Source: Lepiota brunneoincarnata (lineage: Eukaryota; Basidiomycota; Agaricomycetes; Agaricales; Agaricaceae). From it: DNA of 64,000 nt. Below the pieces are notes generated by a model. That model worked only from the letters and a program-made list of their open reading frames with translations. It made no database searches and was not told where the DNA came from. Location: positions 62,001 through 126,000 of the forward strand of contig JAEBUN010000019.1 of NCBI GenBank assembly GCA_023014365.1. The letters run 5' to 3'. Positions 46,981 through 57,514 of this stretch are shown here, in pieces (the first letter of the stretch is position 1; each line of letters starts with the position of its first letter). The position numbers were made by a program, and so were the translations under genes.

Positions 46981-46985
46981 TAGAC

Positions 46986-47328
46986 TGTAGGAATTTTACA
47001 AGCCAGTGGACAGTCGACGCGACGTCGGCTGGACTCTCTCGTTAGTCTCTATTTGGACATGGACCCTACTTGTGCAAATCGCGATCTCGCGATTTATTTA
47101 CTATTTTATTTCTATTCCCATTCAGTAAAACTTCGGTTACCTGGCATACGGACACGTAGCTAGGCTTTCCTCAGTACTCGTGCGTATAACGAGTGACTGA
47201 GGTGAGCATCCACATTTACATCCACTATACTTATGTTAAGCTTATGTTCGTAGTCTTATATTCTTACAGGTTAGCTAATATACAAGTACTCGTGCGTATA
47301 ACGAGTGACTGAGTCTTATATTCTTACA
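46986..47328 (+). repeat. 5' LTR of element 1
   Basis: 343 bp, TG...CA ends. Its 3' third contains a 29-bp sequence (47173-47201 and 47285-47313) twice, each copy holding the hairpin ACTCGT..ACGAGT. The first is interrupted from its partner block by a GT-AG intron-like segment (47202-47253); the second reads straight through. Confidence 0.97.
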
Positions 47329-47340
47329 GGTTATGGGCCC
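47329..47340 (+). other. Primer binding site, initiator tRNA-Met anticodon arm
   Basis: GGTTATGGGCCC immediately follows the LTR and is complementary to GGGCCCAUAACC of the eukaryotic initiator tRNA-Met anticodon stem-loop. That is the half-tRNA primer arrangement known for Drosophila copia and Ty5, rather than priming from the tRNA 3' end. Confidence 0.8.
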
Positions 47341-47362: not shown

Positions 47363-50300
47363 ATGAGCTCCGCAACATCAGACATTCTCCCTTCCTCTGT
47401 TCCGAAAACTCGACCCGGCAGGATCGAACTGGGCTATCTTCATGCTCAGGTTCGAAGCAGCCATCCAGGGCAAGGGGCTCTGGGGCCATTTTGATGGTAC
47501 CGAGATGCGCCCCCAGCTGCCAGACATGACAGCTGCTGCCACGACCACACAGGGACAGACACCCACCACAACCCCATCTCCTATCACAGCCGAAATGGTT
47601 GAGAAGTGGGACCGTGACGAACGCGTCGCGCGTGCCCTACTCATCCAGCGGTTGCCCGACTCCACCCTCATGATAGTTGCCCGCGTAATCACTGTCAAAA
47701 ACATGTGGGACCAGGTGAAACAGGAATACACCTACAAGGGTGCCTTCTCACAGGCACGACTGCGACGCAAGTTCATGGCAGCACAGTGCCCTGAACGTGG
47801 AGATGTCCGAGCCTTCCTACACGATTTACGTGCAAAACGTGTCGAGCTGTCAACAGTCGGAGTCACCATCAGTGATGATGACTACAGAAGCATGGTCATA
47901 GGTTCCCTACCTCGCTGGTTGGCATCATATGCCTCAGCACAACTATCCTTCGCTCGCGTCCATGCTGCCCCTTCCTTCACAATAGACCCTGAAATCTTGA
48001 TCATCCTGATCTGTGACGAGTGGGACCGATGTCGAAGCAACAAACCAAAGGGTCCTACCAAAAATGATGGTGATGAAGCCATGAATGTCGAGGGAGGCAG
48101 CCAGAAGAGTTCAGGAAAGAGGAACTTCAAAAAGGGGAAGTGCCACAACTGTGGAATCCCAGGCCATTACGCCTACGAGTGTCGCAAACCAAAGAAAGAA
48201 GGGGGAGCAGAAAAGTCAGCACCCGAAGCTTCAAAAAGGGAAGCACCCAAACCTAAACCAGCGAGCGTAAATGCAGTCATGGATGACTTCGAGGATGAAG
48301 CCCTGATGGTGGAAATGGATGACGAGATCGAGATCATGGATGACGATGCCGACTGGGGCATCCCGATTGTTGCTACAATAGAAGTAAGCAAATTAGAAGA
48401 AGATCTCCCCTGATTTCGAAGAGACAGACCTACTAGAAGAGGTCTACGCCACCTCCGAAGACAACGAAGTCTTCATAGGGCAGGTTCAAGAACAGAACCT
48501 CCATACGCACATCGAATTATTTGATTCAGGGACATCCAGGCATATCTCACCATATCGAGATGCCTTCGTAAAACTGCAGAGCATCCCCCCTCGACCCCTA
48601 AAGGCTGCCAATAAACAGAGTTTCAGTGCGATTGGGATTGGCGATATAATCCTTGACTTACCAAATGGCAGTACCACCTCGAAACTGCATTTATCCAACG
48701 TCCTGTACTCACCTGAGGCTGGGTACACCCTCATATCCATTGGACGACTCGACGAAGCTGGATATATGGTCACATTTGCAAATGGCAGGTGTATTATACG
48801 TGAACCGGGTGGAAACAAAATAGCCGAGATCCCACGAAACCAAGCAGTCCTATACAAACATGTCAGGGAAGGAGAAATTGAGGTGAATGCTGTCTGTGAG
48901 ACACTCACTCTCGACGAGATGCATCGACGGCTTGGCCACATCGCACCAGCAGCCGTGAAAAGACTTCTACGTGAAGGAATGGTGATCGGTTTACAACTAG
49001 ACTCCAACGGAGACACAAACCTGTCCTGCGATTCATGTATATTCGCAAAATCGACACAGCAGCCAATCGCAAAGGCTCGGCAAGGCACAGGGGCAACTAG
49101 CTTTGCCCAGGAAATACACTCCGATGTGTGGGGACCTGCCAAAACAGAGTCACGAAGGGGACGTAAATACTACGTTACCTTTACCGATGATTATTCTCGA
49201 TGGACACATGTGGATTTCCTGTCAAATAAATCTGACACCTTCGACGCGTACAAACGGTTTGAGGCATGGTGCGAGACGCAGTTCCAAGCTCGTGTGAAGG
49301 CCCTACATTCGGACAGAGGTGGAGAGTACACTGGAAATGATTTTCAGCAGTATCTCAGATCGCGAGGCACAGAGATCAAGCTCACCGTGCATGATACTCC
49401 CCAGCACAATGGAATAGCCGAACGTCACAATCGCACCATCATGGAACGATTCCGAGCCATGAACCACATTGCTCGCCTCCCAGAATACCTGTGGCCTGAA
49501 GGAGTTCGCCATGTCGTGTGGCTAATGAACAGAACAGGGACAAAAGCGATTGCAGGGACAACACCCTATGAGGTCCTGTACAGCAAGAAGCCAGATCTTC
49601 GAGCAGTACGCGAATGGGGAGAGGAATGCTGGGTGCACAAGCCAGGGGTAAATAAAATGGCTGATCATGCTAAAAAGGGCCGGTGGCTGGGTTTCGACCC
49701 GGAAAGCAATGGCATACGAGTCTGGATACCTGCCACAGGTGCCGTGAGGGTAGAACGAAACATCTGTTTCAGAAAGGAGGCAAATCTCGAGGGGGAGAAT
49801 GTGCCAATCAGCGAGATTCGCAGTGAGCAACCACTCACCACGCACCAGACCACCATACAACCCTCAAGCCAGCCACAAACAAGTGCCGAAACCCCTAGCG
49901 AGCCACTAGAGGTCCCAACGAACCCCCCAGAGTCAGTGGTACAACTGCCAACAAAGACAGACAACCAGGACCCGCCCCAGAGTGACCGTCCACAACGTAT
50001 CCGCATGCCAAGCCAAAAAGCTCGCGAAATCCTTGAGGGAACAGCCGTAACGATGGCTGAGGAGCTAGATTGGGAGGACGTGCATGCCCTAGCAGCCGAA
50101 ATGGAGTCCATTGAGGCATTGGAACCAGGAAGCCTCAAAGAGGCTAGAGAACGAGTGGACTGGCCACTATGGGAGAGCGCAATAAAGGAGGAGTTAGCTA
50201 CCCTCAAAGCTGCAGGGACATGGGAACTAGTGGACGCACCACCTGGCGTAAATCGAGTGGGCTCGAAGTGGGTTTTTCGAGCCAAGAAGGATCCAGCTGG

Positions 50301-51688
50301 CAATGTTGTCAAGTACAAGGCCAGGCTCGTCGCGCAAGGATTTTCGCAGGTGCCTGGAGTAGATTACTTTGACACATTCGCTCCAGTAGCACGTCTGGCA
50401 TCGATTCGGGCAGTGCTGGCCATCGCAGCAGCAAGGGACATGGAGTTGCACCAGATAGACATAAAGGGTGCTTACCTAAACGGTCAGCTGAACGACAACG
50501 AAGTTGTCTACATGTCACAGCCTCCTGGTTACCGTGATCCCCTACATCCTCACAAGCTCTGCCGCCTCCGAAAAACTCTCTACGGGCTCAAACAGTCTGG
50601 CCGACGATGGTATCAAAAATTATGCGAGATCCTGGTGGACAATCTTGGCTTCACGAGATGTGAAGTCGATCAGAGTGTGTTTTTTAAAGATACACCTCCT
50701 GATCTCACCATCATTCTAGTCCATGTCGATGACTGCACACTGGCAGCCACTAAAATTGCTCTAGTTGCCTGGACAAAGTCTGGAATATCCGGCTTTGTTG
50801 AAATTTCGGACTTAGGAGAGCTGCACTGGCTCTTAGGCATCGAGATCAAACGAGACCACGCAAACCGAAAAATTTTCATGTCCCAGCGATCCTACATCGA
50901 CGCCTCGCTTCGTCGCTTCGGTTTGGAAGATGCCAAACCACTCAGTGTGCCTATGGACCCATCCACCCGCATTACGGTTGACGCAGCACCGAAATCGACG
51001 GCCGAAATCGCTCGGATGGCCCAAGTTCCTTATCAGGAAGCTGTGGGCACCCTCATGTATGCTGCCCTAGGCACTCGTCCCGACATCGCATACGCCATCC
51101 AACACCTCTCCCGCTATCTAAAAAACCCGGGCGAGGCTCACTGGGACGCTGTCAAACGCGTTTTTCGTTACCTCAAAGGCACTCGAGAACTTTGGCTCAC
51201 TTATGGAGGCCATGGCCAAGATCTTACAGGGTACAGCGATGCAGACGGCAACATGGCCGAGGACCGTCGCGCTACAGTCTGGTTATGCGCTCATTATCAA
51301 TGGAGGGGCTGTTTCCTGGAGTGCGAAACGGCAGGAGATAGTCACTCTATCAACTACGGAATCTGAGTACGTAGCAGCAACCCATGCAGCTAAAGAGATT
51401 CTTTGGCTGCGCTCCCTTATTTCGCAGGTTTTCGGCACCCCCCTTCCCACCACCACTCTCTTCTCGGACAACCAGTCCGCGATCGCGCTCGCGAAGGACC
51501 ATCAATATCACGCGAGAACGAAACACATTGACATTCGGTATCATTTTATTCGATGGATCGTTGAGGAAGGAAAATTAAGGCTAATTTATTGCCCTACCGA
51601 AGAAATGGTTGCCGACGTTTTTACGAAGGCTCTCGCATCGCTGAAGGTCAAGCATTTCGCTCGAGAACTCGGCCTGTCCTTGGCTTGA
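47363..51688 (+). pseudogene. Gag-Pol of element 1, three frameshifts
   Basis: Gag begins at ATG 47363 and includes a CCHC knuckle (CHNCGIPGHYAYEC). Then follow a protease motif (FDSGTSRH), pre-integrase zinc region, integrase (HSDVWGP, HSDRGGEYT, AERHNR), reverse transcriptase (KARLVAQGFSQ, HQIDIKGAYLNG, VHVDD) and RNase H with a VADVFTKAL end. The frame is broken by single-base insertions near 47404 (an A run), 48411 and 51275. Each moves the frame by +1; otherwise the sequence is conserved. Whether these are real mutations or assembly errors cannot be told from the sequence. Confidence 0.9.
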
Positions 51689-51695
51689 GGGGGAG

Positions 51696-52038
51696 TGTAG
51701 GAATTTTACAAGCCAGTGGACAGTCGACGCGACGTCGGCTGGACTCTCTCGTTAGTCTCTATTTGGACATGGACCCTACTTGTGCAAATCGCGATCTCGC
51801 GATTTATTTACTATTTTATTTCTATTCCCATTCAGTAAAACTTCGGTTACCTGGCATACGGACACGTAGCTAGGCTTTCCTCAGTACTCGTGCGTATAAC
51901 GAGTGACTGAGGTGAGCATCCACATTTACATCCACTATACTTATGTTAAGCTTATGTTCATAGTCTTATATTCTTACAGGTTAGCTAATATACAAGTACT
52001 CGTGCGTATAACGAGTGACTGAGTCTTATATTCTTACA
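51696..52038 (+). repeat. 3' LTR of element 1
   Basis: 343 bp, identical to the 5' LTR except for A at 51960. It is preceded by the polypurine tract GAGGGGGAG (51687-51695), the usual plus-strand primer. Confidence 0.97.
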
Positions 52039-52108
52039 TAGACCGAGGTTCGGCTGATTGTTGCTGACATGCAGCACATCCCGTTCGCATACATGTTCCC
52101 AATACTTG

Positions 52109-52499
52109 TGTCGGGCTCGCAAACGCGTGCCGAGTTCCGATCTCCGTTTCGCTGGCGTTCCTTTCGCGCCCTCCGCTTTTGCCCTCTATCCCGCGCTCCA
52201 TTCCTTTTGCACGGTCTCTACCGTTTTTGTATCTTTTATGCTATGCCCTTACCATTCTCCTCTGCCCGTACACTATTGCTATTGTGCTTATTGTCTACGT
52301 ACAAGCGCGTGTATCGTAGTGTTAGATAAATAGTCTCTCGCTTGTAGTCGCACTTCAGCTCTCGCGTCGAGACTGAAGTGAGTATTCTACCAATACCTTT
52401 AATTACTGTACTGACTACTTTGTAGTATATCTTATATTGTTCTACAGGTAAATAGTAAGCTCTCGCGTCGAGACTGAATATATCTTATATTGTTCTACA
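52109..52499 (+). repeat. 5' LTR of element 2
   Basis: 391 bp, TGTCGGG...TCTACA. A 21-bp block (52357-52377) is split from its following block by a GT-AG segment at 52378-52425 with GTGAGT donor and a TACTGAC branch-like site. The same blocks are then repeated fused at 52458-52499. Confidence 0.97.
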
Positions 52500-52511
52500 G
52501 GTTATGGGCCC
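52500..52511 (+). other. Primer binding site, initiator tRNA-Met anticodon arm
   Basis: GGTTATGGGCCC follows the LTR as in element 1, although the LTRs of the two elements are otherwise dissimilar. It again fits half-tRNA priming by initiator tRNA-Met. Confidence 0.8.
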
Positions 52512-57123: not shown

Positions 57124-57514
57124 TGTCGGGCTCGCAAACGCGTGCCGAGTTCCGATCTCCGTTTCGCTGGCGTTCCTTTCGCGCCCTCCGCTTTTGCCCT
57201 CTATCCCGCGCTCCATTCCTTTTGCACGGTCTCTACCGTTTTTGTATCTTTTATGCTATGCCCTTACCGTTCTCCTCTGCCCGTACACTATTGCTATTGT
57301 GCTTATTGTCTACGTACAAGCGCGTGTATCATAGTGTTAGATAAATAGTCTCTCGCTTGTAGTCACACTTCAGCTCTTGCGTCGAGACTGAAGTGAGTAT
57401 TCTACCAATACCTTTAATTACTGTACTGACTACTTTGTAGTATATCTTATATTGTTCTACAGGTAAATAGTAAGCTCTCGCGTCGAGACTGAATATATCT
57501 TATATTGTTCTACA
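57124..57514 (+). repeat. 3' LTR of element 2
   Basis: 391 bp, with four substitutions by eye relative to the 5' LTR, three of them C/T or G/A at CpG sites. It is preceded by the purine tract AAGGGGAG. It keeps the intron-like segment and the fused second copy. Confidence 0.97.

Follow-up and report, generated by a model that had tools for sequence, protein, structure and literature searches.

A Ty1/copia long terminal repeat of Lepiota brunneoincarnata with an intron beside a probable recurrent copy of its own spliced leader

Two Ty1/copia retrotransposons with long terminal repeats (LTRs) lie in a 64,000-nucleotide (nt) stretch of Lepiota brunneoincarnata contig JAEBUN010000019.1 (the window), and in both of them the LTR carries an intron-like segment next to the very copy that splicing of this segment would give. 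The order in all four LTRs is U3, A1, intron I1, B1, spacer S, A2, B2 and primer site. Based on sequence comparisons, we propose that the spliced leader RNA is the recurrent template of A2-B2, with a probability of roughly 0.7. A fuller scheme, to which we give about even odds, is that of an obligatory LTR intron: the leader would be spliced, its copy would be rewritten into U5 in each generation and a start-dependent hairpin would keep the 3' copy unspliced, with information passing one way from a template half (A1-I-B1) to an expressed half (A2-B2).

In the case of element 1, the 5' LTR occupies 46986-47328 (343 bp; all features of both elements are on the + strand), has TG...CA ends and matches its 3' LTR at 342/343 sites. 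A1, the putative first exon of 29 nt (47173-47201), begins at the predicted transcription start A (47173). It is followed by I1 (GTGAGC...GTAG, 47202-47253), the 52-nt GT-AG gap that separates the two copies, by B1, a predicted 16-nt micro-exon (TCTTATATTCTTACAG, 47254-47269) that is concerted with B2, and by the spacer S (GTTAGCTAATATACA, 47270-47284), whose final 1-2 bases form a hypervariable junction. A2 (47285-47313) is identical to A1 and is the candidate landing site (R) of strong-stop complementary DNA (cDNA), and B2 (TCTTATATTCTTACA, 47314-47328), the copy of B1, makes up the LTR terminus. The primer-binding site (GGTTATGGGCCC, 47329-47340), presumably of the half-tRNA-iMet type, comes next. 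A predicted second intron, I2 (GTTAGC...ACAG, 47270-47329, 60 nt), contains S, A2 and B2 and ends on a G that already belongs to the primer site as its first base; excision of I2 would link B1 to that site. In the case of element 2, the 5' LTR (52109-52499, 391 bp) has A1 at 52357-52377, I1 at 52378-52425 (GTGAGT...TTTGTAG), B1 at 52426-52447, A2 at 52458-52478, B2 at 52479-52499 and a predicted I2 at 52448-52500. The gap position is unique in element 2 and slides by up to 2 nt in element 1, because there the intron has the same last two bases, AG, as the A block. Base-by-base reading bore out every coordinate that a first-pass annotation had assigned in the two elements, together with its remark that GGTTA downstream of the first copy in element 1 repeats the start of the primer site. 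A chance repeat was rejected for element 1, where the intron-tolerant alignment scored 38, while the best of 150 shuffles in which neighbouring bases were moved as pairs reached 9.0.

The layout recurs across the genome (55.6 Mb, 95 contigs). Here, ACAGGTTATGGGCCC had 163 exact matches and its reversed control none, and 100 of these 163 primer-site places were followed. In total, 105 distinct upstream stretches anchored on the primer site, including a few further sites in other loci, were aligned by a blind aligner that allowed one long gap and scored neither GT nor AG. The layout appeared in 36/105 stretches, all with scores of at least 25 (next best 9.5), and the gap was GT...AG in every one of the 36. 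Its position was unique in 21 and slid by up to 2 nt in the other 15 (slack judged by eye), giving a clean GT...AG count of 21/21. The possibility that the 52-bp segment was a deletion unrelated to GT-AG boundaries in family members, which the first-pass annotation had named as the outcome that would speak against splicing, did not materialize in this blind count. These alignments establish the GT-AG relation between the copies at the DNA level.

The full layout U3–A1–[GT…AG intron]–B1–S–A2–B2 was present at 78 distinct LTR places, 3' and solo LTRs included. The matcher used for this count, like later ones, needs a GT donor, so that donor-less copies are uncounted and the 78 places add nothing to the GT test; it also omits degraded copies, e.g. 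L147, L113, L110 and L160. The layout was absent from the 19 loci (counted by eye) of the L010 group, which have the same primer site. In IMG/VR, the primer-site pattern was found at 8 loci, 0 of them with the layout, and no locus was confirmed for the pol protein. At E <= 0.001, 1981 of 7998 scored candidates were relatives of this protein; among the best 120 of these 1981 are proteins assigned by name to Agaricus bisporus and Cyclocybe aegerita, and we take the named relatives among the matches listed to be from Agaricomycetes fungi.

Important insight comes from comparing the two copies within each element. B1 and B2 are exactly equal in 69/78 places and differ by at most one mismatch in 75/78. 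B differs strongly among subfamilies and A does likewise, yet the copies match within each element. For 47 non-redundant combinations, the mean B1/B2 difference was 0.28 per 15 nt, compared with 7.6 (minimum 5.2) after permutation of the pairs in 10,000 rounds, and the mean A1/A2 difference was 1.9 per 20 nt, compared with 8.1 (minimum 5.7); because the copies share descent, this permutation is a description and no test on independent samples. Among 11 B types more than 2 mismatches apart (mean mismatch between types 9.4), B1 equals B2 in 8, differs by 1 mismatch in 2 and by 3 mismatches in L161. The comparisons thereby demonstrate A and B copies that evolve in concert. In the C18 element, both LTRs show a base change in A1 and neither shows it in A2, a pattern that fits an A1 inherited from the parent 3' LTR and an A2 inherited from the parent 5' LTR. 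Transitions account for 84/92 counted A1/A2 mismatches at the 78 places, an excess as expected from decay after insertion. As an observation on the genome itself, the predominance of C/T and A/G among these mismatches suggests transition-biased decay of repeats, either by CpG deamination or by a process similar to repeat-induced point mutation.

The junction between S and A2 varies from insertion to insertion. In 10 fam2 elements it reads TA (5), TC (3), CC (1) or TT (1), with five singleton transitions in 150 flanking sites. In 14 elements of fam1, the family of element 1, it reads C (6), CA (2), T (2), CT (2), CC (1) or G (1), and 22/161 flanking sites are variable, 2 of them with a transversion. 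The corresponding counts for 14 elements of the L018 group are CT (12), TG (1) and CC (1), with 8/149 flanking sites variable and no transversion, and those for the L020 group, which has the type 2 layout described below (n=10), are CC (6), CT (2), TCC (1) and CCT (1). The base at position -1 of A1 is C in 49/49 elements, and each of the four groups has a mixture of bases at -1 of A2; for this set C38 was removed, one more divergent fam2 copy was added and fam1 was widened. The junction bases are common to both LTRs in 15/15 pairs, six of which carry the commonest L018-group junction and two of which, from fam2, represent one insertion. This agreement of both LTRs implies that the junction is set during reverse transcription. 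Altogether the junction bases demonstrate renewal with each insertion at A2 and not at A1, a scar that points to A2 as the place where strong-stop cDNA lands. Conventional transfer with R running from A1 to S on unspliced RNA was rejected, as it predicts the scar at A1, where the preceding base is invariant.

A similar phenomenon is known from human immunodeficiency virus 1 (HIV-1). One report describes a variable hot spot one base upstream of the RNA start, with an extra cDNA base arising through cap copying and mismatch extension at minus-strand transfer (PMC12172438). In HIV-1 the change is to G (PMC12172438), whereas the copia elements here show all four bases, and their scar is found beside the second copy of A and not where U3 meets A1. 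On the side of the assembly, two fam2 loci, L052 (C38:315842) and L054 (C13:119393), have the same 3' flank and the same A1 change and represent one insertion. They are probably haplotype contigs or a segmental duplication, and some insertion counts may be inflated by such duplication.

Regarding the introns, I1 measures 48-54 nt and I2 52-66 nt in 76/78 places, the predicted B1 exon measures 16-24 nt in 76/78, and a GT directly after B1 plus ACA at the LTR end is present in 76/78; the I2 donor is broken in two places, L135 and L145. In this layout, here called type 1, I2 runs from the GT after the CAG of B1 to a CAG made of the LTR end and the first primer-site base. To bring B1 beside the primer site, type 1 would need this second intron, and splicing of I2 is a prediction of the model. 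Since its last G belongs to the primer site, the 5' LTR would have a complete I2 acceptor, and a 3' LTR would have one only when followed by a flank that starts with G. The lengths of both introns are near those predicted for the host actin gene of the same genome (48-58 nt, from a simple model that is not curated). A second layout, type 2, was found at 14 loci in 4 families. Its second A ends in CAG, so that a single intron of 49-63 nt would suffice; A1 ends in CAG in 0/78 type 1 places. Two further loci deserve mention. L087 (C13:33840-34240) has the type 2 layout with a GC donor in place of GT and is otherwise similar to L013 (by eye), and L072 (C8:1081000-1081390) joins a type 2 A-intron-A block to an end resembling that of fam1 and looks like a chimera between families. 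The predicted I2, the second layout type, a possible hairpin over the start and short and intronless sister forms all go beyond the first-pass annotation.

TATA spacing points to a transcription start at A1. A TATA-like word lies 30-34 nt upstream of A1 in 11/18 representatives, a raw count that carries no chance control and in which several representatives are related. Matches to TATAAATA upstream of A1 reach 7-8/8 in fam2 and the L018 group, 6/8 in the L014 group and 3/8 in fam1, and A begins with AG, preceded by C or T, in the 18 representatives. Directly upstream of this start, fold and helix searches identified an arm that can pair with the A1 end and the splice donor. The possible arm is GCTTTCCTC (47164-47172) in element 1 and CGCACTTC (52349-52356) in element 2. 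The donor helix has 8 bp in fam2 and in element 2 (CACTTCAG pairing with CTGAAGTG), 8 bp in the L014 group, 10 bp in the L012 group and 11-13 bp in four type 2 families, and in L085 it consists of TACTTCAG and CTGAAGTA, with the donor GTAAGT. The frequency of such helices in shuffled sequence was 0.000-0.004 for type 2, 0.007-0.011 for the L012 group and 0.03-0.21 for 8-bp helices, with 0.03-0.16 for fam2 copies. In the foldings, the 3' context left the donor less accessible than the 5' context did in 17/18 representatives (in three of them by <=0.03), and the donor was also less open than with the upstream 30 nt shuffled in 17/18. Because RNA from the 5' LTR would lack the arm, pairing could close the donor at the 3' end of the RNA and leave it accessible at the 5' end, and we regard this modelled hairpin switch as a good lead. 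In foamy virus, according to one study, 13 nt upstream of the start alter the fold of the 3' copy, leaving fewer U1-binding donor bases free (PMC3694450).

We propose the following cycle. The LTR would carry two copies of its 5'-terminal segment R (A), and the RNA would start at A1. The spliceosome would remove I1 from the 5' leader, plus I2 in layout type 1, to yield an RNA of the form 5'-A-B-primer site, on which the half-tRNA primer would give a strong-stop cDNA of spliced A-B. By base-pairing with the unstructured terminal copy, A2, this cDNA would then move to the 3' region of the RNA, and its extension into unspliced S-B1-I1-A1-U3 would produce the new LTR, U3-A1-I1-B1-S-A2-B2. The intron-bearing half would in this way be inherited from the RNA 3' end, and A2-B2 would be rewritten in each cycle as cDNA of spliced A1-B1. 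We infer that the 3' end of the RNA lies at A2 or beyond it. Only the read-through 3' copy would carry the arm that precedes the start, and there the arm would mask the donor by pairing over it, so that the 3' copy would stay unspliced and could be polyadenylated. The first-pass annotation had suggested an exchange between spliced and unspliced RNA during reverse transcription. The data agree well with this idea if the exchange is a regular part of the life cycle and not an accident, because the layout extends over many subfamilies, the A and B copies are concerted and A2 bears a fresh scar in each insertion.

Several observations weigh against the proposed cycle. The branch-site consensus CTRAY occurs in only 7/30 distinct I1 sequences, and the fam1 I2 donor GTTAGC is weak. 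As for the start, 7/18 representatives have no TATA-like word at 30-34 nt, the family of element 1 has no recognisable TATA box (best match 3/8), and weak TATA-like matches of 4-5/8 are also seen upstream of A2. The hairpin is less evident in the GTGAGC families, element 1 included, where the helix has 6 bp and a shuffle frequency of 0.62-0.91, not significant alone. L036 and L021 have a different best helix, the folding of L013 (1/18 representatives) goes the wrong way, and in the 5' context too the donor is predicted to be partly paired (unpaired 0.12-0.55). Short forms of the LTR (A-I-B and A-B) can also come from recombination between direct repeats. Finally, this genome was the sole eukaryotic DNA covered.

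The main variant of the model, which we consider unlikely, does without homology: reverse transcriptase would jump from the RNA 5' end to the RNA 3' end at the S/A2 boundary and add 1-2 untemplated bases, with the parent A2 unused. Such an end-to-end jump suits junctions of any base, 1-3 nt long and placed exactly at the predicted position of the RNA 5' end. However, no poly(A) remnant was seen at the junctions examined, the S end does not vary within a subfamily, whereas scatter is usual for poly(A) sites, and mostly the last base alone changes, as expected from mismatch extension after pairing at A2. We give clearly less credence to one ancient template switch after which gene conversion or recombination kept the A-B copies alike under ordinary reverse transcription. 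The repeats are close enough for this (101 and 112 nt apart in the window elements) and deletion-like forms exist, but a junction that differs between insertions, is common to both LTRs and lies at A2, not at A1, would be left unexplained; nor was a locus with an intron in both copies or in the second only seen among the loci read by eye, the matchers not being designed for such a form.

It is very unlikely, in our view, that A2 is the true start, with a weak TATA-like element in B1, conventional replication through R = A2 and A1-I-B1 as a decaying relic in U3. The position of the scar and the 4-5/8 TATA-like match about 31-35 nt upstream of A2 would agree with such a start, and in fam1 the match at A2 is no worse than that at A1. 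Against it, the TATA match at A1 is far better in fam2 and the L018 group, and A1/B1 are concerted with A2/B2 and not decaying. A tandem A-B duplication with subsequent intron gain in the first copy, the other suggestion of the first-pass annotation, formally yields the layout once, but under it one would expect neither concerted evolution of the copies nor a scar confined to A2, and as it needs parallel change of both copies over the 11 B types more than 2 mismatches apart, we find it scarcely credible.

Sister forms of the layout were identified by eye. A-I-B adjoins the primer site in L024, L037, L086, L088, L109, L120, L128 and others, and an intronless A-B adjoins it in L069, L124 and L098. 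Among apparent single elements, judged without target duplications, L163/L164 are intronless in both LTRs and L131/L132 are short in both. Three asymmetric elements have matching target-site duplications: C22 (TGTTA; L002/L129) and C20 (CTATC; L103/L130) combine a full 5' LTR with a short 3' LTR, and C28 (CAGCC; L124/L145) combines an intronless 5' LTR with a full 3' LTR. The asymmetric and short forms fit a transfer of alternative splice products, and repeat-mediated deletion would look alike. In addition, L021, L096, L125 and L127 form a family in which there is only A-I-B beside the primer site, with an intron of roughly 35 nt; none of these four loci has a second copy. At L015/L016 (C1:1183234-1186412), two opposed primer sites about 160 bp apart have matching LTR-end sequence in a palindrome-like fragment.

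The remaining features of the window elements are those of Ty1/copia LTR retrotransposons, namely integrase before RVT_2, a copia-type gag, paired TG...CA LTRs, a short target-site duplication, a primer site and a purine tract. Element 1 is flanked by a perfect 5-bp duplication, TAGAC (46981-46985 / 52039-52043). Its gag open reading frame (ORF; 47442-48413) encodes a copia-type gag with a zinc knuckle (PF14223, 1.9e-21; PF00098, 0.00017), and its pol ORF (48766-51366) encodes gag-pre-integrase, integrase and then RVT_2 (PF13976, PF00665 and PF07727 in this order, with PF00665 at 118-207 and PF07727 at 485-730). The 3' LTR (51696-52038; A1 51883-51911, I1 51912-51963, A2 51995-52023) differs from the 5' LTR at 1/343 sites. 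Element 2, with the duplication ACTTG, has the same layout in its 3' LTR (57124-57514), 4/391 differences between its LTRs and the domains PF14223, PF00665 and PF07727, the last in the next ORF. Purine runs precede the 3' LTRs (GAGGGGGAG / GAAGGGGAG). The LTR ends of the two elements are separated by 70 bp, and their target repeats by 60 bp. A retrovirus proper was rejected, as the integrase comes before RVT_2 and reverse transcriptase is not first.

The order of integrase and RVT_2, the primer site GGTTATGGGCCC, the 5-bp duplication and the TG...CA ends are shared with Ty1/copia elements, among which we take Drosophila copia to use a half-tRNA-iMet primer. To our knowledge, Ty1/copia elements have an LTR without an intron and a single R. 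The leader is retained in the genomic RNA of foamy virus, whose LTR is not known to hold a spliced copy; in the copia elements here, in contrast, strong-stop cDNA seems to be templated by the spliced leader, with the product carried in the LTR. Foamy virus may nevertheless offer a parallel: its splice donor lies in R upstream of the LTR poly(A) signal, U1 small nuclear ribonucleoprotein blocks the 5' poly(A) signal, and in the 3' LTR the donor is concealed by RNA structure that involves the stretch before the start (PMC3694450). Among the titles and abstract openings listed in literature searches, none describes an intron-bearing LTR beside its own spliced copy.

Introns are expected to vanish on passage through RNA, and here one seems to be kept across many subfamilies within a repeat that is itself rebuilt. 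As the genome holds the spliced product beside the intron, splicing may be read from DNA alone. The elements would also provide a non-retroviral case of an old problem, i.e. how identical LTRs act differently at the two ends of an RNA.
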